From: an uncultured Lachnospiraceae bacterium
GTDB taxonomy: Bacteria > Bacillota > Clostridia > Lachnospirales > Lachnospiraceae
Assembly (NCBI GenBank): GCA_947588845.1
Contig: CANQAR010000007.1
Location: 1 to 64,000 of the forward strand
Length of the DNA stretch: 64,000 bases
Direction: 5' to 3'
The position numbers were made by a program, and so were the translations under genes. A model generated the notes under the pieces. The model searched no databases, had not been told where the DNA came from, and saw only the letters and a program-made list of their open reading frames with translations. Below are positions 26,381 through 36,956 of this stretch, one piece after another. Each line of letters starts with the position of its first letter. Position 1 is the first letter of the stretch.

Positions 26381-28219
26381 ATGAAAGTGGACAAGATGAA
26401 TGAAAATTTCAATGGAATGGGGACAATGGAGCAGGAGGACAGCGGCCTTCATCTGCTGAAAAAGGGACAAAAAGGGCTGCGGTACGCATTGTTCAGCCGG
26501 GTCGGGATCATGCTGCTTCTGCTGATTCTGCAGGTGATGGTTCTGTTGGGTATATTTAAATGGTTCAATAATTTTCTGCCGCATATGTTGGGAGGCGCCG
26601 TGCTTTTTAACATCTGCATGGTGCTGTACCTGATCAACAGTGCGATCGATCCTACCGCGAAAATCACCTGGCTGATCGTGATCATGATGTTCCCGGTATT
26701 TGGGGCGCTTCTGTTCTGGTATACCCAGAGCGAGGTCGGACACCGGGCAGTGAAGAAGCGTCTGGAGGATATTCTGGCCGTCACGAACGGGAAACTGAAG
26801 CAGGATAAAAAAACGTTTTCTGATCTGGAAAAGGAGAATCCGGAAGAGGCGGCTCTGGCTCACTACTTCCAGCGAAGCGGCGGTTTTCCAGTGTATGCGG
26901 ACACGCAGGTGACGTATTTTCCGCTGGGCGAGGACAAGTTTGCGGAGATGCTGGCGCAGCTTCGGCAGGCGGAACATTATATTTTCATGGAATATTTTAT
27001 TGTGGATGAGGGACTGATGTGGGGCAGGATTCTGGAGATTCTTGCGCAGAAAGTCAAGGAGGGCGTGGATGTCAAAGTTATGTACGACGGCACCTGCGAA
27101 TTTTCCACGCTGCCTTACAATTATCCGGAAAAGCTTCAGAAACTGGGGATTCAGTGCAAGATGTTTTCTCCGATGTCGCCGTTTTTGTCCACGCACTATA
27201 ATTACCGGGATCATCGCAAGATCCTGGTGATCGATGGACATACCGCGTTTACCGGCGGCGTGAATCTGGCGGACGAGTATATCAACCGGATCGAGAGGTT
27301 CGGACACTGGAAGGATACGGCCATTATGCTGAAAGGCGAGGCGGCGAAGAGTTTTGCGCTGATGTTCCTGCAGATGTGGGGTGTCACGGAACGTCTGCCG
27401 GAGTTTGAGCGGTATCTGGGTGTGGCAGTTTCAGGCGAACAGGGAGACCTGGCAGCAGAGAATGAACAGGGCATGAGCGCTGTTTCGGACAGTGGTTCGG
27501 AAGTGGAGAATGAGAGTGCCTCTTCGAACGGTGATCTGGCAGCAGAGAATGAACAGGGCATGAGCGCTGTTTCGGACAGTGGTTCGGAAGTGGAGAATGA
27601 GAGTGCCTCTTCGAACGGTGATCTGGCAGCAGAGAATGAACAGAATAAGTGTGCCGTTTCAAAGGGGCAGAATGGATACGTGATCCCGTTTGGTGACTGT
27701 CCGCTGGACGAAAATAAAGTGGGAGAGCGCGTCTACATGGATATTCTGAACCGTGCGGTCCGCTATGTACATATCATGTCGCCTTATCTGATCCTGGACG
27801 GAGAGATGGAGACCGCCCTGAAATTTGCCGCTGAAAGGGGAGTGGATGTCCGGCTGATTCTGCCGGGGATCCCGGACAAAGCTGCACCGTACGCGCTTGC
27901 GAAGACGCATTACAAATCTCTGCGGGCATCCGGCGTGAAGATCTACGAGTATACGCCGGGCTTTGTGCATGCGAAGGTGTTTGTCAGCGACGACTGCCGC
28001 GCCGTGGTGGGTACGATCAATCTGGATTACCGCAGTCTGTACCATCATTTTGAGTGCGCTGCGTACATGTACCGGACGGACTGCATCGCGGATATCGAGG
28101 CGGATTTCCAGCAGACGATGGAGAAGTGCCAGCTCGTCACGGACGAGACGATCCGGAAGGAGAAGAAGTCCCGGAAGATAGTCGGCGCGGTGATGAAAGT
28201 GTTTTCGCCGCTGTTGTGA
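26381..28219 (+). CDS. cls: Cardiolipin synthase with a repeat insertion
   Basis: 612 residues. Two N-terminal membrane segments (about 40-100) precede two PLD domains: His278, Lys280, Asp285 in HRKILVID and His530, Lys532, Asp537 in HAKVFVSD. It makes cardiolipin from two phosphatidylglycerols at the membrane. The family is about 500 residues; the excess is residues about 355-428, which hold an 87-bp tandem repeat (27443-27655) between the two PLD halves. The start at 26381 follows GAGAGGGGG. Its 3' end is duplicated downstream. Confidence 0.92.
   Translation: MKVDKMNENFNGMGTMEQEDSGLHLLKKGQKGLRYALFSRVGIMLLLLILQVMVLLGIFKWFNNFLPHMLGGAVLFNICMVLYLINSAIDPTAKITWLIVIMMFPVFGALLFWYTQSEVGHRAVKKRLEDILAVTNGKLKQDKKTFSDLEKENPEEAALAHYFQRSGGFPVYADTQVTYFPLGEDKFAEMLAQLRQAEHYIFMEYFIVDEGLMWGRILEILAQKVKEGVDVKVMYDGTCEFSTLPYNYPEKLQKLGIQCKMFSPMSPFLSTHYNYRDHRKILVIDGHTAFTGGVNLADEYINRIERFGHWKDTAIMLKGEAAKSFALMFLQMWGVTERLPEFERYLGVAVSGEQGDLAAENEQGMSAVSDSGSEVENESASSNGDLAAENEQGMSAVSDSGSEVENESASSNGDLAAENEQNKCAVSKGQNGYVIPFGDCPLDENKVGERVYMDILNRAVRYVHIMSPYLILDGEMETALKFAAERGVDVRLILPGIPDKAAPYALAKTHYKSLRASGVKIYEYTPGFVHAKVFVSDDCRAVVGTINLDYRSLYHHFECAAYMYRTDCIADIEADFQQTMEKCQLVTDETIRKEKKSRKIVGAVMKVFSPLL
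27443..27655 (+). repeat. 87-bp in-frame tandem repeat inside cls
   Basis: Unit 1 is 27443-27529 and unit 2 is 27530-27616, nearly identical, followed by a partial third unit to about 27655. The encoded unit starts GDLAAENEQGMSAVSDSGS and is acidic and Ser-rich, so probably unstructured. Confidence 0.95.
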
Positions 28220-28439: not shown

Positions 28440-28467
28440 TTGCCGGTTGTTACCCGGCAATTTTTTT
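28440..28467. terminator. Bidirectional terminator between cls and the helicase
   Basis: Stem TTGCCGG (28440-28446) / CCGGCAA (28454-28460) followed by seven T, with AAAAAA on the opposite side. The helicase stop codon (28450-28452) is in the loop. Confidence 0.8.
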
Positions 28468-30204
28468 CATACAGATCCAGTAATTTTTTTCCCGGATATT
28501 TTCTGCTTCCCGAATCTTTCTTTCAATCTGCTCGTGATCGGACTGCCAGTCTGAGCGGACGATCCCAAGGTGCAGACAGCGCTGTATTTCAGCCATCGTC
28601 TTGTCGTCCGCTCCTTTGCGCTTCATAGTTTCCAGAAGTGAAGATGCTGCGGCGTCATAGCGAGGGTTTTCAAAGCCGCGGGCTTCAGAGGAATAATTCA
28701 TTTCCAGATAGCGGAAGCTGCCTGCATCAGGCAGAAAGTACCGGTCCTCCACAGACTGTTCGATGTGAAGATAGTAGAGCGATGCCCGCTCTTTTCCGTC
28801 TTTTTTGCGGATAATGCGGCCAAGGCGCTGGATGCGCTGGCGCTGCATGGAAGTTCCGGAGAGGATAATTCCGATGGAGGCATCCGGGATATCCACGCCT
28901 TCATCCAGGGATCTGCAGGAGATCAGGATGCGAAATTCTCCGGTCCGGAAGCGGTTCAGCGCATTTCGGTTCGCGGTCTGTCCCATGCGGGAATGACAGC
29001 GTCCCACTTTTCCGGGATAACGGCGGTGCAGGTGAGCGTACAGTTCTTCCGCCTGACGGATGCGCTCTCCGAAGATCAGAATTTTTTCTGTCTCGGGGAG
29101 CCGCAGGATCAGGTCGTATGCGCAAAAGATCCGGGAAGAGGCCAGACATACCAGGCTTTTCCTCCTGTAGGTGAGGTTCATATATGAGGAGGCCTCCTGC
29201 GCAGTTTTCGGATTTTTATCCCCGGCAAGGATGCGCAGCAGTTCAAACTGTTCTTTCAGACTGCCGTGTTTCAGACCGGGATGAACGGAGGTCAGACGGC
29301 TGTACAGTATGCTCATTTTGTCGGTGATCTCCAGGTATTCGGCCTGTTCTTCCGGCTGAAAGGACAGACCGACGTGAAAGATGTCGCAGGGACATACATT
29401 CTGCAGTGCGGATGCCTGTGAGATTCCATAACTGTAGATTTTCCGGCCCAGCACAGAGGTAAGATAGTCCTGCGAGTGTCCGGACGGCAAGGTCGCGGTC
29501 AGACCGAGAGAGAAAAAATGGTCTCTGTATTCGTTCATGTGCGGAAGAAATTCGAAAATCAGACGGTTCTGCTCGCTTTCGTAGCGGTGGCATTCGTCCG
29601 CAATCAGAAGGACGGGGGCGCCGCTTCTGAGGTCGGATAAAATCTGCCTTGCCAGTTCATACCGGGCAGAATTGATCACATAAATCATATACTTATAGTT
29701 CTTTTCCGTACGAAAACCGCCGCCGCACATGCCTGCCCGGAACTTTGTGGCATGCCCGCTGTCATGCAGAACTGTCCGGGAGTTTATGCCGGGAGCTGTT
29801 TTTTCATATCCGCGGCCGTGCAGAACTGTCCGGGAGTTTATGCCGGGAGCTGTTTTTTCATATTCGCTGTCATGCATACCTGCCTGGAAGTTTGCTCCGG
29901 AGAATGCTTCATCCCGTCTGGCGGCGTATGGTTCTGCCTGAAATTCTGCTTCAGGTGTTGAGTCCTGAGCGGCGGCAAAAAATTCCTGCAGATTCCGGTT
30001 CCACTGACGCATCAGTGCGCTGGTAGGCACAACAATTTTCACGAGAAGCTTTTGTCCGAACGCATTGTCCAGACGGCTGGCGGCAGTCAGCGCAAGCAGA
30101 GTTTTTCCGGTTCCGGTGGCGGCCTGGACGATGCCGCGGCAATGATTTGCGAACCAGAGATCCAGACATCTTTTTTGCCACGGATAGAGTTCTTTCTTTT
30201 CCAT
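28450..30204 (-). CDS. DEAD/DEAH-type SF2 helicase with a repeat insertion
   Basis: 584 residues. Walker A AATGTGKT (28-35), DECH box (203-206), TATLP (motif III-like) and the C-terminal RIQRLGRIIRKKDGKE (motif VI) mark an SF2 helicase of the type III restriction/UvrB-like kind. It should move on or unwind DNA or RNA using ATP. Residues about 81-168 are an in-frame low-complexity insertion with a 54-bp tandem repeat. It diverges from a three-gene operon of a coiled-coil protein and two ATPases, a layout like other helicase-ATPase systems. A BREX-like or DNA-processing role is inference. Confidence 0.88.
   Translation of the reverse strand: MEKKELYPWQKRCLDLWFANHCRGIVQAATGTGKTLLALTAASRLDNAFGQKLLVKIVVPTSALMRQWNRNLQEFFAAAQDSTPEAEFQAEPYAARRDEAFSGANFQAGMHDSEYEKTAPGINSRTVLHGRGYEKTAPGINSRTVLHDSGHATKFRAGMCGGGFRTEKNYKYMIYVINSARYELARQILSDLRSGAPVLLIADECHRYESEQNRLIFEFLPHMNEYRDHFFSLGLTATLPSGHSQDYLTSVLGRKIYSYGISQASALQNVCPCDIFHVGLSFQPEEQAEYLEITDKMSILYSRLTSVHPGLKHGSLKEQFELLRILAGDKNPKTAQEASSYMNLTYRRKSLVCLASSRIFCAYDLILRLPETEKILIFGERIRQAEELYAHLHRRYPGKVGRCHSRMGQTANRNALNRFRTGEFRILISCRSLDEGVDIPDASIGIILSGTSMQRQRIQRLGRIIRKKDGKERASLYYLHIEQSVEDRYFLPDAGSFRYLEMNYSSEARGFENPRYDAAASSLLETMKRKGADDKTMAEIQRCLHLGIVRSDWQSDHEQIERKIREAENIREKNYWICMKKIAG
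29767..29874 (-). repeat. 54-bp tandem repeat inside the helicase gene
   Basis: Two 54-bp units, 29767-29820 and 29821-29874, with at least 43 identical bases. They encode the repeated residues YEKTAPGINSRTVLH (115-129 and 133-147). Confidence 0.95.
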
Positions 30205-30638
30205 ACGATACCTCTTTGGTTGAACAATAAACTTTCATGCCCACGCTGCGGGCAACACCATGAATGAAAGCCCACGAATCGCTCCGTGCCTCTGGCACTT
30301 CCGCGCTTCTGCCCCGCATTCGCAAAGTCTACGCTCCGTTTCGGGTCTCCACTCCGTTTCGGTCGGTTCTAAACGAGCGCCACTGGCGCTCAGAACCGGC
30401 GCCAAACGTGTGCCACTGGCACACGGCGCCACATCGCTCATGTTCATTCGCGCTGCTGTTTTGCTCATACGGGTTAGCGTCTCTCATACATGATCAGTCT
30501 GGCAAGCAAGCTTGCCGCCTGTTCCTGTATGGAGACTGGGCTTTCAAAGTAAACAAAGGATTGAAAACAGGAGATAATTCATTTATACTGTAAAAGCAAA
30601 TATCCTATATGATACAATATCTTGCGGAGGATGAAAAG
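30205..30638. repeat. Divergent gap with a bounded family 1 element (30266-30545)
   Basis: A 280-base element bounded by a perfect inverted repeat GAAAGCCCA (30266-30274) / TGGGCTTTC (30537-30545). Inside, in reverse orientation to the 3831 copy, are CTCCGTTTCGG and GGTCGGTTCTAAACGAGCGC blocks plus CGCCACTGGCGCT and TGTGCCACTGGCACA palindromes. It lies between the helicase and ATPase genes, so it could shape their promoters. No coding frame is convincing. Confidence 0.65.
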
Positions 30639-31406
30639 ATGAATTACGAAGATTTTTATGTGGAAATGCAGGCGAAGGAAAAAGCGATGAAGGATAATCT
30701 GGCGGGGATTCAGAAGTTGTTTAAGATGATCAGCCGCGAGACGGAGAATGGTGAGATCAGGGGGCTTGGCAGGGATCTGGATTCTATGGCTGAGGCCGTG
30801 GATACCCTTGCATCGACCCTGAGAGAGATGAAGAATACGGTTTCTGGTTTTGACGCGAAGGATTATTTTGAGAGCGGGGATTTTGCGGAGCAGATGCTGC
30901 AGGAATGCAGGGAAAAGAACGTAAATGTCCGCGGGGAGTTTCCGGTTTATGAGATGTTTCCATACAGAGTCAGGCTGGACGTGGAAAATCAGGATGTCTA
31001 CATTGACCGCAAAAAGATTTCGTGCGTGCGTCCGCGGAAGGTGGTCGAGACAATCAAAAACGGGCAGGAAAGGCTCAACAGGGCTTCTTTTAACGCGCTC
31101 ACTTTTGCCAGCGAGCTGGCGGACGCGTATGATCTGGCGGTTCTCAAACTGAATAAAAGACCGGATGCGGATATTTATCTGACGAGTCTGTATAAATTCC
31201 TCGCGCCGATGAGCCGTTTCCGGAAAGATTACGACCAGCAGAGCTTTGCGTTTGACCTGGCAAGGCTGTATATTTCCGGAATAGAGGAAACGAAAAGCGG
31301 GAGAAAAATCCAGTTCGGGCCGAGCAGGATCATGAACAAATCAATCCGAATCCTTGACAGGGAAGGAAAGGAACAGTATCTGGCGACAATTCGTTTTTAC
31401 AAATGA
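30639..31406 (+). CDS. Unknown coiled-coil-like protein of a helicase-ATPase module
   Basis: 255 residues. Residues about 1-75 are rich in Glu, Lys and Leu (AKEKAMKDNLAGIQKLFKMI) and look helical, perhaps coiled-coil. The rest (about 95-255) is a mixed domain with no motif I recognise. The start at 30639 has GGAGG 8 bases upstream. It is 12 bases ahead of the first ATPase gene, so the two are surely co-transcribed. It could be the DNA-binding or sensor subunit. Confidence 0.7.
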   Translation: MNYEDFYVEMQAKEKAMKDNLAGIQKLFKMISRETENGEIRGLGRDLDSMAEAVDTLASTLREMKNTVSGFDAKDYFESGDFAEQMLQECREKNVNVRGEFPVYEMFPYRVRLDVENQDVYIDRKKISCVRPRKVVETIKNGQERLNRASFNALTFASELADAYDLAVLKLNKRPDADIYLTSLYKFLAPMSRFRKDYDQQSFAFDLARLYISGIEETKSGRKIQFGPSRIMNKSIRILDREGKEQYLATIRFYK

Positions 31407-31418
31407 GGGTAAACGACA

Positions 31419-32594
31419 ATGAGATCGGAACAGTACAAAAGCGCTGAAGCGTACGGGATTCATTTTCTTTCTGATTTCTGGGAAGAAAAATATCTGGAAG
31501 AGTACATTAAAGACGGTGGAAGCAAAATAAAATTTGTCTCCGGGCGGAGCGGAAGCGGGAAGACGCATTTTCTGCGTCTGATGACTGGTATTGCGAAGGA
31601 GAAAAACTACAGGACGGTTCAGTTTTCCGCGAAAGATATCTGGATGCATGATTTCCGGGAAATTTATATTGAGATTTTTCATCAGTGCGATATCATGGAC
31701 TGTCTTGCCGCTGTCGGCAGGCATCTGATCCGCGAGATGGGATTTGATGATCAGGAGATACCGGAGGGAATGCAGTTTATCGATTACCTCTCGCAGAATA
31801 ATATGGGAGATGCGCTGACAAAGCGGGAGATCCGGGCGCAGCTGAAGGAGATTTTTCTGGATAATCCCATGCTGGACAATAATTTTGCACTGGCATGCAG
31901 CATGCTGACGGGAAGTATTCTGGGATATCCTGTTCTGGAAGAACAGAATAAGCTGCTGCTTCTGGCCTGGCTGGAGGGGGATCGGACAGTCAAGCTTTCG
32001 CAGCTGCGCACGCTTGGATTTTATCCGTGCAGGATTACAAAATATAATGCGCGGCATATGCTCCGTTCCCTCGCGGAGGTCATTCATATGGGAGGATCTT
32101 CGGGGCTGTTTGTTACGATTGATGATCTGGAGATCCTGATCAGCCGTTCAAGCCTTGAGACGGTTCATTATACGAAAATGAAACGGGAGGATACCTACGA
32201 GAGTATCCGTCAGCTGATTGATGATATTGACAGTATGAAACATATTATGTTTGTTCTGGCTTTTGACCGGGCGCTGACCGACGACGAGAATGCCGGTCTG
32301 AAATCCTATCAGGCGCTCTGGATGAGAATACAGAATGAAATCGTGGGAGAGCGGTTCAACTGCTTTGCCGACATGGTGGATATGGACAGGCTGGCGGAAC
32401 AGGAGTATACGCCGGAAGTAGTGGTCGCGATCTCGGAAAGTCTGGCGGAGCGGCAGAAAACTGTGCAGGCGGTCAGGCCGCTTGGACTGGAGGAAGCGCA
32501 GGAGATTGTGCGGCAGGCGCGCACCGGTGCTGTGGGGATTCCGCAGCTGATCCAGGCTGCCATGCAGGAGGAGGATTCCAGAAATGACGTATGA
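31419..32594 (+). CDS. P-loop ATPase 1, BrxC/BrxD-like (DUF2791-type)
   Basis: 391 residues. Walker A is SGRSGSGKTH (about 44-53) and a Walker B-like LFVTIDDLEIL is near 235. The flanking layout resembles BREX ATP-binding proteins BrxC/BrxD. It overlaps the next ATPase gene by 11 bases and is 12 bases after the unknown gene. Having two different ATPases in tandem suggests a hetero-oligomer. Family assignment is from recall of motif layout; role is inferred. Confidence 0.7.
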   Translation: MRSEQYKSAEAYGIHFLSDFWEEKYLEEYIKDGGSKIKFVSGRSGSGKTHFLRLMTGIAKEKNYRTVQFSAKDIWMHDFREIYIEIFHQCDIMDCLAAVGRHLIREMGFDDQEIPEGMQFIDYLSQNNMGDALTKREIRAQLKEIFLDNPMLDNNFALACSMLTGSILGYPVLEEQNKLLLLAWLEGDRTVKLSQLRTLGFYPCRITKYNARHMLRSLAEVIHMGGSSGLFVTIDDLEILISRSSLETVHYTKMKREDTYESIRQLIDDIDSMKHIMFVLAFDRALTDDENAGLKSYQALWMRIQNEIVGERFNCFADMVDMDRLAEQEYTPEVVVAISESLAERQKTVQAVRPLGLEEAQEIVRQARTGAVGIPQLIQAAMQEEDSRNDV

Positions 32595-33783
32595 TATAGA
32601 GGCAAGACACATTGTGGAAGCTCTGCGCTCGGGAATTCCGTCCCGTGCGGTGGGGCAGTATTTTTCCGAGGCAAGGCCCAGGATTATGAAGGAGATCTCT
32701 GAGCGTCTGGACGCGGTGTGCGGCCAGGGCCGTTCGTCCGGAATGATCATCAGCGGAAAGTATGGGGAAGGGAAGACGCATCTTCTGAATACGGTATTTC
32801 ATCTGGCGGATTCCCGCAACATGGTGGTTTCTTTGATCTCGCTGAGCAAGGAAACTCCTATGGACAAGCTCTATCTGATCTATCAGAAAATAATGCAGAA
32901 TACGTATCTTCCCGGGCGGCAGCAGCCGGGATTCATGCATGAGATACAGAAAATATCGGCCAACAGTCCTGTGGCGAACGAGATGCTGTTTTACGCGCTG
33001 AAACAGCTGGAGACGGATAAGCTGTATTATCTGTTCCGCTCCTATCTGAATACGGAGGATTCGGATGAAAAGTTTCTTCTGCAGGCGGATATGGAGGGGG
33101 ATTTTATCGCGAATGCGCCGCTGAAAAAGATATACCGCCGTATTTTCGGGCAGCCGGTGAAATATAATGTAAATTTTACGAAGACAAAGCACTGCAGGGA
33201 TTATTTTTCCTTCATGAGCCACCTGTTCCTGCAGCTGGGCTATGGCGGCTGGGTAATTCTCATCGATGAGACGGAGCTGATGGGGCGGCTGGGGAAAAAG
33301 GCGCGGCTGAACGCTTACCGGAATATGGCGAAGTTTCTCCTTCCGGAGACATGTCCTGAATATACATTCAGTCTTTTTGCGCTCAGCGCTTCCTACGCGG
33401 AGGATGTAATCGAGGGGAAGCATGAATACGAGAACCTTGAGGAAATCTATCCGGAAGAACAGGAACCTGCAAAAACCGTTCTCAACCTGCTCTTAAAAGC
33501 GCCTCAGCTTCTTCCGCTGACAAAAGAGGAGATTAATGAGGTGCTTCAGAAGATACAGGATTTCCATGGGCGGGCGTACGGATGGACACCGGATTTGTCT
33601 GTTTCCTCTCTGACGGAGGCAACCCAGTCCGGAGGATATCTGCTCCGCACAAAGATAAGGGCCGCCATAGAGTTTCTGGATCAGCTGTATCAGTATGGCC
33701 AGGCGGGGAGGACGACGGTCAATGAGCTGGGTAAAGAAGTTTTTACGGAGGATGTGCCCTCTCTGGAAGAGATCGTCATGTGA
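32584..33783 (+). CDS. P-loop ATPase 2, BrxD-like (DUF2791)
   Basis: 399 residues. It begins EARHIVEALRSGIPSRAVGQ, typical of BrxD-like proteins. Walker A is SGKYGEGKTHLL (about 57-68) and Walker B GGWVILIDETELMG (about 220-233). The N-terminus fits the DUF2791/BREX ATPase family. In BREX type 2, BrxD lies with an Lhr-like helicase; here an SF2 helicase is divergent, but the methylase and PglZ phosphatase are missing, so it is not a classical BREX. Start overlaps ATPase 1. Confidence 0.75.
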   Translation: MTYDIEARHIVEALRSGIPSRAVGQYFSEARPRIMKEISERLDAVCGQGRSSGMIISGKYGEGKTHLLNTVFHLADSRNMVVSLISLSKETPMDKLYLIYQKIMQNTYLPGRQQPGFMHEIQKISANSPVANEMLFYALKQLETDKLYYLFRSYLNTEDSDEKFLLQADMEGDFIANAPLKKIYRRIFGQPVKYNVNFTKTKHCRDYFSFMSHLFLQLGYGGWVILIDETELMGRLGKKARLNAYRNMAKFLLPETCPEYTFSLFALSASYAEDVIEGKHEYENLEEIYPEEQEPAKTVLNLLLKAPQLLPLTKEEINEVLQKIQDFHGRAYGWTPDLSVSSLTEATQSGGYLLRTKIRAAIEFLDQLYQYGQAGRTTVNELGKEVFTEDVPSLEEIVM

Positions 33784-33940
33784 CACATTATTTCAGATAC
33801 AGGATAAGATGCTGGCCCGTATGAACAGCAGCGATTGTGAACGAGTGAAAGCAGTGCGGTTTGCGAATACGGGTCCGGCAGTAATCCCTCATACCGGATG
33901 CAGCGGCAGCGCCATGGATGAAGGCAGGAAGGGGGAAGAT

Positions 33941-34141
33941 ATGGGAAGGTATTTAAACAGCAGGATTCCTTTTGAAACATGGAAACAAATTTCCAGAACA
34001 CGTTTTTTTGTAGATAAAACCCTGCTTCTGGAAGATATTTTAGATGCGGCTGAGACAGATGGACAAAGATTTCTGTGTATTACAAGACCGCGGCGTTTCG
34101 GAAAAAGTGTGATGGCAAATATGGTTGGAGTGATGATATGA
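33941..34141 (+). pseudogene. Truncated AAA-ATPase-like gene (N-terminus only)
   Basis: 66 residues, GRYLNSRIPFETWKQISRTR, ending just after the Walker A-like RPRRFGKSVMANM. Full relatives have over 500 residues (compare the protein at 22841-24577). An RBS is intact (GGAAGGGGGAAG), but the frame runs out at the start of the DUF3877-like gene, whose ATG overlaps its last bases. Probably a remnant left by a deletion or insertion. It is a different subfamily from the other two copies. Confidence 0.8.
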
Positions 34142-34754: not shown

Positions 34755-34923
34755 GCAAACATATATTTTTAATAGATAAAAAATATTATTCAAAACGAGA
34801 AAAGAAACTTTTTGAAATGGCGATAGATGTAGAGGAAGTTGTAGTATGCTAGAATAACGATGGAGTGTCGATTTGAATTAAAAAGTTAATATGATTGTAT
34901 TTCAAAGAGAGAAGGTCGAAGAG

Positions 34924-35775
34924 ATGTCAGATGATAGGACTTTGAAAAAGGAAGATATAAAGCCATCTGATATTAAAGCTAATATATATGATTCGGTAGA
35001 AATAGTTGTTGATATTTATGGTGTTACCGAACACAATATTGAAGATACTCTGGAAAAGTTAATTGAAATATTACCTGCTCAAAAATATAGAAGAACAGAT
35101 GATTCTTTAACAGTTGAAGAGATTAATGCTTATGGGGATCGAAAGGATATTCCTTTAACTCATTCTTTAAGGAGAAGATACTTGGAAAAGGAAGGTGTAG
35201 TCAGGTATTATTCAAAAAAGGATTCGGAAAAAATAACAATATGTGGATTGTTTATAAGCATATCTTTATCGTATGAAATAGCTCATATCTTGAAAGACAA
35301 TATAGAATTAATGCATAAAATTATTGAAATATTCAAAAAACTGGAATACTTTGAAGTTGAAAGAATTTCTCTGATAAAAAAAGATAGTATATATTGTTCG
35401 TCTTTAGATGATTTGTATCAATGCTTTAATGAAAAAATGTTTTCTGATGCAGGATATGCTTTAGGGTATAAAGCAGGGGAAACAGATTGTGGAGTGACAA
35501 AAGTTTATAATAATTTTTCTTATAAAGAAACAGATATTATTTTGAATAAACAAATAATGGCAGGACAATTAGCTGATTCAGATGAAATTGTTTATGAGGG
35601 TAAGATGGAGACAATAGTTTCCAGGGGATTATTTGAAGACCTGATAAATGTAAAAGAAATATTGAGTGAATTGAATGATATTTCCTTTGAGATATTTATG
35701 AATCATATAACAGATGATTTTGCAGCGGATCTGGTTGCGGGAAAATCATCGAAAGTAAAGGCGGGGGTGAAATGA
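34924..35775 (+). CDS. Unknown AT-rich-cassette protein, first gene
   Basis: 283 residues. I do not recognise it firmly. The layout (an N-terminal VEIVVDIYGV strand, a long helical middle, then RISLIKKDSIYC) is reminiscent of the TIGR04255 family of sporadic, defence-linked proteins, at low confidence. There is no signal or membrane segment. The start at 34924 is favoured by GAAGG 9 bases upstream; ATG 34891 lacks an RBS. Its TGA overlaps the next ATG. Codons are strongly AT-rich, unlike the neighbours, which suggests transfer. Confidence 0.65.
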   Translation: MSDDRTLKKEDIKPSDIKANIYDSVEIVVDIYGVTEHNIEDTLEKLIEILPAQKYRRTDDSLTVEEINAYGDRKDIPLTHSLRRRYLEKEGVVRYYSKKDSEKITICGLFISISLSYEIAHILKDNIELMHKIIEIFKKLEYFEVERISLIKKDSIYCSSLDDLYQCFNEKMFSDAGYALGYKAGETDCGVTKVYNNFSYKETDIILNKQIMAGQLADSDEIVYEGKMETIVSRGLFEDLINVKEILSELNDISFEIFMNHITDDFAADLVAGKSSKVKAGVK

Positions 35776-35963
35776 TTGCTATGAGTGATATTAAAAAAAA
35801 TTCAGGTATTCTAAAAGTTGGAGGTATGCCGGAGATGGTTAAAAGCAATCCAAAAGTAAATTTTAAACCAACAGAATCAAGCGTCAGAAGAATGGCAAAA
35901 GCCAACCAGGAAGAGCATATCAGAGCATCAGATAATATTATGAAATTTAAAATAACCAGGTAA
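35772..35963 (+). CDS. Small basic protein between the cassette genes
   Basis: 63 residues, Lys-rich (KSNPKVNFKPTESSVRRMAK), without a known domain. It overlaps the previous gene by ATGA, and the next gene starts 3 bases after its stop, so all three are translated together. GGGGG lies upstream; ATG 35781 is an alternative start. It may be an adaptor or antitoxin-like partner; this is a guess. Confidence 0.6.
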   Translation: MIAMSDIKKNSGILKVGGMPEMVKSNPKVNFKPTESSVRRMAKANQEEHIRASDNIMKFKITR

Positions 35964-35966
35964 TTT

Positions 35967-36956
35967 ATGAAAAAGACAATTACATTAGGGAAAGATGATA
36001 AACTTTTTATTAAAGTGTATCATATAGGATACTCAAAACAGGGAGAAAGCTGCATTTTTTTATTATATACGAGTGATAAAAAGATCTTATATTCACTGGC
36101 AATTGATTGTTATGAAGAGGAACAGTGTAATATAACTGATGAGATACTTAAGAAATGGAAACTTGAAAACAGGCTGGATATGTTTATATGGACGCATGCT
36201 CATGATGATCATTCAATTGGCATTAATAAGATAATTGAGAAGTATTGTACAAAAGATAGTATAATATGTATGGAAAACGTTTTTCAGATAAAAGAACAAT
36301 GTTCAGAATTATGTAAAGAAAATATTGAACATATATACAATCTGAATTATAAAAAAAGAGCAAAAAACAAGTGGAAAATAAATCCTCTGACCTGTTTTCC
36401 AGCTCTTTTGGATGGTAGGCAATTTAACGGTGAGAGTGATATTAAAAACCTGAATGTTCAATGTATTTCTCCATTTCCTGAAATAGGCGGGATGCAGACA
36501 GGCAGGATTAATCATAATAAAAGCTGTATCGCATGCATCATAAAAATAGAAATGAAAAATAATGATATTAATTTTTTATTTGCAGGCGATATGGAATATT
36601 ATACAATAGAAAAATTGATTATGGAGTATGAAGAATATAGAGATATTATACCATGTGTTTATAACTATATAAAAATTCCTCATCATGGAAGTGCTAACGC
36701 CAGGAATATGATAGATTTTTTGGCGTTGGAAGGGAAAAAATCAGGATTTGCATCAACATCAGTTTTTGTTAATAAAAAATTACCGGATCCTCAAATATTA
36801 CAAAAATATAAAAGCGTAGTCGAAGAAATAGCGTGTACTTCTGCCATTGATGTTCCACAATATGGGACAGGCGTTGTTTGTTTGACTTTTGATTTGTCCT
36901 TAAAAACAGTAACACCTGTTTTCTATGGTATGGCAGAGTATGTACATTTTTCATGA
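35967..36956 (+). CDS. ComEC-like metallo-beta-lactamase-fold hydrolase
   Basis: 329 residues. HxHxDH is His77, His79, Asp81, His82 (THAHDDHS); FAGDMEY (about 205) and IPHHGS (about 233-238) give the remaining metal ligands, as in ComEC/Rec2-type lactamases. There is no membrane or signal segment, so this is a soluble protein unlike ComEC itself. The family cleaves phosphodiesters or nucleotides, so a nuclease or nucleotide-cleaving effector is plausible. AT-rich codons match the two upstream genes. Confidence 0.8.
   Translation: MKKTITLGKDDKLFIKVYHIGYSKQGESCIFLLYTSDKKILYSLAIDCYEEEQCNITDEILKKWKLENRLDMFIWTHAHDDHSIGINKIIEKYCTKDSIICMENVFQIKEQCSELCKENIEHIYNLNYKKRAKNKWKINPLTCFPALLDGRQFNGESDIKNLNVQCISPFPEIGGMQTGRINHNKSCIACIIKIEMKNNDINFLFAGDMEYYTIEKLIMEYEEYRDIIPCVYNYIKIPHHGSANARNMIDFLALEGKKSGFASTSVFVNKKLPDPQILQKYKSVVEEIACTSAIDVPQYGTGVVCLTFDLSLKTVTPVFYGMAEYVHFS

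Follow-up and report, generated by a model that had tools for sequence, protein, structure and literature searches.

Is the helicase gene that stands opposite three coupled genes in an uncultured Lachnospiraceae bacterium a remnant of a known phage-defence system, or does it belong to a machine of another kind? The locus lies in a window of 64,000 nucleotides (GenBank assembly GCA_947588845.1, contig CANQAR010000007.1, positions 1-64,000 of the forward strand). A first-pass annotation of this window had described a helicase divergent from a coiled-coil gene and two BrxC/BrxD-like ATPase genes, and had left the choice between a reduced BREX system and a separate DNA-processing or defence system.

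Organisation of the locus

An ORF check of the window found the four genes at the positions that had been claimed, with the DECH helicase (HEL) on the minus strand and the coupled operon CC-A1-A2 on the plus strand (Table 1). The gap of 12 nt between CC and A1 and the overlap of 11 nt between A1 and A2 had also been read correctly. This start/stop overlap of the two ATPase genes is frequent among relatives, a single spacing being found in 40 of 68. The start of CC corresponds to the ATG at 30639, preceded at a distance of 8 nt by the ribosome site GGAGG, and the longest possible ORF, of 265 aa, begins at 30609.

Table 1. Features of the HEL/CC-A1-A2 locus, in window coordinates.
Feature	Position	Strand	Remarks
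HEL, SF2 helicase/translocase, ResIII/XPB-like	28450..30204	-	GTGKT, DECH and QRxxRxxR kept
In-frame 54-bp tandem repeat, 3 copies	29751..29912		In the variable part of HEL that links helicase motifs I and II
Dispersed repeat, 334 bp	30218..30551		Between the divergent genes HEL and CC; close relative G036 lacks it
Sigma-70-like promoter of CC-A1-A2, TTGAAA-17-TATACT	30561..30589	+	Identical in relative L034
CC, 255 aa, outside known families	30639..31406	+	Modelled as hairpin, alpha/beta domain and winged-helix-like C-terminus
A1, BrxD-like AAA+ (PF10923), predicted arginine-finger side	31419..32594	+	Walker B Glu replaced by Asp
A1 Walker A, GRSGSGKT	31542..31565	+	Complete in this locus, missing from several lineages
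A1 degenerate Walker B, Asp-Asp	32121..32126	+	Catalytic Glu missing
A1 SYQALWMR	32304..32327	+	Final Arg is the predicted arginine finger
A2, BrxD-like AAA+ (PF10923), predicted catalytic ATP-site side	32584..33783	+	Finger motif lost
A2 Walker A, GKYGEGKT	32755..32778	+	
A2 Walker B, Asp-Glu	33265..33270	+	

The 334-bp repeat has 55 matches within its own genome, and only a few bases occupy the corresponding part of the HEL/CC intergenic region of G036. This repeat spares the CC promoter, and it could cut HEL off from a promoter of its own.

HEL, a protein of 584 aa, matches the Pfam families ResIII and Helicase_C, and its GTGKT and DECH motifs are kept in 14 homologues. Among defence models, PbeA and TIGR04095 are the closest to its helicase core, with a profile score of 198 bits for PbeA versus 20 bits for BrxHI, and SngC is absent from the best 25 of 41 models. 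Its best relatives of solved structure are archaeal XPB/Rad25 proteins, and no PLD nuclease domain was found in it with Pfam. In addition to the tandem repeat in the HEL linker, an in-frame acidic tandem repeat (approximately 27418-27661) is present in the cardiolipin synthase gene next door in the same strain, in a stretch that is unaligned in relatives.

On the other side of the operon, a low-GC island (36-40%) at 34891-36956 encodes a 294-aa protein without assignment, a 63-aa protein, and a protein that looks like a member of the metallo-beta-lactamase fold. Beside it lies an apparent remnant of an AAA-ATPase gene (approximately 33937-34141). This island is possibly another acquired module.

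A putative ATP site divided between A1 and A2

Both ATPases are members of PF10923 (BrxC_BrxD), scoring 106 bits (A1) and 87.6 bits (A2) against a cut-off of 22.2, which agrees with their initial description, and no further PF10923 protein was found in the genome of 5.06 Mb. The first-pass annotation had also assigned a Walker A/B pair to each. The two Walker A strings are indeed present, but the pairs are not equivalent, since the Walker B of A1 is non-canonical and reads IDD, without the catalytic Glu.

The alignment of A1, A2 and SngB, the single ATPase of the Shango system, shows how this difference extends to the relatives. All 113 A2 sequences have the Lys of Walker A and the Glu of Walker B, and the last Arg of the third motif, the finger motif, is kept in 5 of them. 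In A1, the finger Arg is kept in 108 of 109 sequences and the Walker B Glu in one, its place being taken by Asp in 73 and by Asn in 27; several lineages also have an eroded Walker A. SngB keeps all three elements, namely Walker A, the Asp-Glu of Walker B, and SYEALxSR. A motif search in a wider set of 55 trios found the finger motif in 54 of the A1 proteins and in none of the A2 proteins, and the Walker B Asp-Glu in all 55 of the latter, although such counts are not independent events because the sequences are related. The split pattern holds on both sides of a deep division of the trios and in every class of partner described below, and A1, A2 and SngB form three separate, well-supported clades in a phylogenetic tree.

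In ORC/Cdc6 ATPases, the Arg located before strand 5 acts in trans as an arginine finger. Family knowledge and the alignment predict this same role for the Arg of SYxALxxR. An arginine finger at the base of strand 5 is retained in BrxD (PMC12839542). A1 and A2 appear each to have lost the complementary half of one ATP site, and to share one between them. Such complementary losses predict that both proteins form an obligate heteromer with composite ATP sites.

The coiled-coil protein

None of the Pfam, NCBIfam or PADLOC models matches CC significantly. The protein is weakly matched by one PHROG of unknown function (E=0.0046), and among the sequences of the PDB only a designed coiled coil falls below E=0.01. 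In its AlphaFold2 model (mean pLDDT 90), two long helices form a hairpin (residues 3-70), which is followed by a small alpha/beta domain and by a C-terminal unit made up of helices and then three strands. Fold searches with the full-length protein returned coiled-coil hairpins only, and for the C-terminal 184 residues, modelled separately (pLDDT 89), Foldseek retrieved nothing at E<=0.001 from the PDB or from viral models. Using VIA-align, this C-terminal part weakly matches the winged helix of ORC1 (Z 7.0, rmsd 3.2, 77 aligned), and the first half of the 184-residue model weakly matches frataxin (Z 6.8, rmsd 2.9, 75 aligned), both Z values being of a size that has been reported for models that lack true relatives. 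Other weak winged-helix matches were to Cdt1, forkhead proteins and condensin. Because of this overlap, the resemblance of the C-terminus to a winged helix is a suggestion only. As to the role in target recognition that the first-pass annotation had suggested for CC, the resemblance would nevertheless make a contact with DNA plausible.

Linkage, co-divergence and distribution of the four genes

The first-pass annotation had asked whether the four genes occur together across Lachnospiraceae. They do so in this family and beyond it, all four being present in 67 of 80 related loci, and a lack of linkage between the helicase and the ATPases, which had been named as the contrary outcome, did not emerge. 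Among the 58 loci with more than 4.8 kb of upstream sequence, 56 are complete; in one of the two exceptions the contig stops at A2, and the other is a locus without HEL. HEL is divergent in 59 loci, collinear and upstream in 6, and downstream in 2, so that its linkage outlasts rearrangement. With 67 complete loci, 59 of them in the divergent layout, the arrangement is not due to chance. Furthermore, the distance matrices of the four proteins are strongly correlated (Mantel r 0.86-0.95 over 62 loci; maximum r of 0.31 in 500 permutations), which shows the co-inheritance of a linked block.

The 80 loci come from Lachnospiraceae, Oscillospiraceae, Desulfosporosinus, Spirochaetales, Coriobacteriales and Bacilli, and the presence of the set in the phyla Bacillota, Spirochaetota and Actinomycetota is patchy. 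An A2 with at least 75% identity exists in 10 of the 47 genomes of the genus, and close A2 relatives in 8 of the 298 genera of the family. When CC was used on its own as a profile, 17 of 398 genomes of the phylum were detected, every one of them among the 18 found with A2. In three species the four-gene block directly follows the cardiolipin synthase gene, and in six relatives it is absent from this place, where other genes are found. The distribution is that of an accessory set, which probably moves horizontally.

Around the loci with the XPB-type helicase, most of the flanking genes are metabolic. Matches to defence families were obtained for only a few of 131 neighbours, so that the enrichment of defence islands at these loci is weak, and none of the four genes has a product recognisable as a nuclease, methylase or toxin. 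An origin from a virus or a plasmid was considered and found to be unsupported, with no relative of A2 in IMG/VR or in phage records, and a single BREX-like match of 22% identity in the plasmid search.

Exchange of motors and presence in CRISPR-Cas operons

CC, A1 and A2 also occur with partners other than HEL. In 12 deep-branching genomes that contain this trio no HEL orthologue was found, the best scores being at most 59 bits versus at least 770 in HEL-bearing genomes. Partners were surveyed in the neighbourhoods of these 12 genomes and of 23 more of a second class. In 15 loci the trio adjoins an SF1 helicase of 865 aa, with AAA_11/AAA_12 domains and a topoisomerase-type zinc ribbon; in 4 loci SNF2 helicases lie beside it; and in 2 loci BrxL comes after A2. 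Five deep loci (L077-L080 and L082) have no motor nearby, and in one of them (L079) the trio lies near a BREX-like operon. In another (L077:1-10509), A2 is apparently split into two frames at approximately 3580, and the trio is followed downstream by a 437-aa gene, a DnaK-like gene, a 545-aa gene and a beta-CASP metallo-beta-lactamase gene, the 437- and 545-aa products being unassigned.

Six trios are located at CRISPR-Cas loci. In the type I-B locus L072 the order is Cas8b-Cas7b-Cas5b-Cas3b-trio-...-Cas1, and L221, also of type I-B, repeats this order with the addition of Cas4 and an array. The type I-D locus L074 is arranged as Cas10d-Cas11d-Cas7d-Cas5d-Cas3d-trio-DUF4282-Cas1 and has an array of approximately 71 repeats, and L219, apparently of type I-D, contains Csc2, a Cas3-like helicase, Cas1 and Cas4. 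The trio lies beside Csa1 in L073, and beside Cas6 in L071. In four CRISPR loci it stands between the effector genes and cas1, and its distance to cas1 is 2-9 nt in L219 and L221 (2 nt in L219). Given that cas1 is closer to the trio than cas3 in these operons, the trio may not be partnered by the motor at such loci, and its position next to cas1 means that a role in spacer acquisition would fit too. In L072, L074, L219 and L221, CC-A1-A2 represents a possible undescribed CRISPR accessory module.

A tree built from the concatenated sequences of CC, A1 and A2 places each of the XPB, SF1 and BrxL classes in a single clade, and the CRISPR loci cluster together, with the exception of one short contig and with one SNF2 locus among them. 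The partner labels require 7 changes on this tree versus 29 when they are shuffled. CC-A1-A2 is the real core, and the helicase is an interchangeable part.

Proposed function and alternative readings

Taking all the data into account, the best reading is that the trio is a split loader, similar to ORC/Cdc6, which serves DNA motors of defence systems, the motor being in this case an XPB-like translocase. We estimate at roughly 0.6 the probability that the four genes constitute one accessory, horizontally moving machine for DNA surveillance, most likely antiviral. In this reading, A1 and A2 would assemble into an obligate hetero-oligomer of ORC/Cdc6-type AAA+ subunits, in which ATP would be bound and hydrolysed in A2, with A1 providing the arginine finger in trans; A1 should usually still bind nucleotide, and should not hydrolyse it. 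The coiled-coil hairpin of CC would join this assembly, and its alpha/beta and winged-helix-like domains may contact DNA or the motor. The assembled trio would then load a DNA motor powered by ATP onto invading or aberrant DNA, or license it there, this motor being HEL in the bacterium of the window. The separate DNA-processing or defence system envisaged at the outset is supported as an idea, with the function presumed as above.

A broader proposal can be made tentatively, with the odds leaning slightly against it: CC-A1-A2 could be a portable motor-loading cassette of prokaryotic immunity, consisting of a split ORC-like switch and a coiled-coil/winged-helix adaptor, and used by at least four kinds of motor (XPB-like, SF1, SNF2 and BrxL) and by type I-B/I-D CRISPR-Cas. 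Finding the trio next to several motors, and also within CRISPR operons, suggests a loading or licensing step shared by immune systems that are now treated separately. The natural split of the ATP site would lend itself to clean genetic and biochemical dissection, since Arg303 of A1 and Glu229 of A2, although located in separate proteins, should be jointly required.

It could also be thought that the XPB-like helicase and its ORC-like loader form a module for DNA repair or replication restart, working on the damaged DNA of the cell itself and not on invaders. The kinship of HEL to archaeal XPB/Rad25, the lack of a nuclease in the four genes and the often metabolic flanks speak in favour of this role, which is nevertheless unlikely in view of the patchy presence over three phyla, the swapping of motors between loci and the insertion of the trio in CRISPR-Cas operons. 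It is rather improbable that the trio is primarily a module for DNA-end processing or prespacer handling during adaptation, its pairing with helicases being secondary: the proximity to cas1 in the four CRISPR loci and to Csa1 in L073 would be explained, but most trios, including that of the window, have no Cas genes beside them, and those of the XPB, SF1, SNF2 and BrxL clades have motors as partners. Returning to the loader of defence motors, the set can be catalogued as a candidate defence system.

Comparison with described systems

In both BREX and Shango, an ATPase of the BrxD type is accompanied by a helicase. BrxD has been classed as an ORC/Cdc6 AAA+ protein and proposed to be the loader of BrxHI (PMC12839542). 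The locus resembles this BrxD-BrxHI dyad of BREX type 2 in the tight linkage of a PF10923 ATPase of the ORC/Cdc6 type to a helicase; however, it has a helicase of another class, an additional ATPase and CC, and the scores of A1 and A2 with the BrxD equivalog (71 and 46 bits) are far below its cut-off of 350. The absence of PglZ from the locus, already pointed out in the first-pass annotation, was corroborated, as the two PglZ genes of the genome are on contigs C3 and C168 and the window is on C7. A PF10923 search of this genome found no BrxC beside those genes, and no PglX-type methylase was seen with Pfam among the four genes. Membership of BREX was rejected, with PglZ unlinked, a low BrxD score and a HEL that is not BrxHI-like, and for the same reasons the suggestion of a reduced BREX was abandoned. 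The PglZ frames on C3 and C168 (874 and 899 aa) suggest separate BREX loci.

Shango, formed by a TerB protein, an ATPase and a helicase, restricts phages (PMC10250203) and is present in the same genus. It likewise combines a BrxD-like AAA+ protein with an SF2 helicase and a third protein, but its single ATPase has a complete site, where here there are two with complementary losses, and its helicase is BrxHI/Lhr-like instead of XPB-like. Moreover, SngA is not homologous to CC, which does not match this TerB-like protein (hhalign probability of 0.4%), and A1 and A2 score 57 and 48 bits with the SngB model versus 633 for a true SngB of the same genus. Shango membership was consequently rejected. 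A degenerate BREX or Shango that kept its mechanism after the loss of methylase/PglZ or of the TerB protein is very improbable, since the PF10923 membership, the weak BrxD and SngB matches and the deep trios that adjoin BrxL or lie near a BREX-like operon are outweighed by the scores just given, by the three separate clades of A1, A2 and SngB, and by a stability across phyla that is unlike that of a decaying remnant.

Phosphorothioation-linked PbeABCD/TIGR04095 includes the defence helicases closest to the HEL core; in contrast to them, HEL has no PLD nuclease domain, no PbeC-type ATPase is found among the four genes, and the best DndC match in the genome reaches 30 bits versus a cut-off of 290.4. 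PbeABCD membership was rejected on the basis of HEL and DndC. With type I-B/I-D CRISPR-Cas the likeness resides in the homologous trios inside such operons in other Bacillota, whereas the trio of the window has an XPB-like helicase and no Cas genes were seen among its four genes and nearest neighbours. NF053860 (DS41_1) matches A2 only weakly, with E=0.0025; the content of DS-41 is not stated in the main text of its paper.

No description of the four-gene set, and no mention of DUF2791 or of PF10923 with a helicase, was found in the literature searched, which consisted mostly of non-subscription articles in their main texts, so that an earlier description may exist. The PADLOC 2023 and NCBIfam 2026 models do not name the system.

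Shango-type loci were observed in several species of the genus (L087-L095), SngA, SngB and SngC being confirmed by PADLOC in L087 and L089, and four genomes (G020, G019, G018 and G009) have matches both to the four-gene system and to a Shango-like ATPase.
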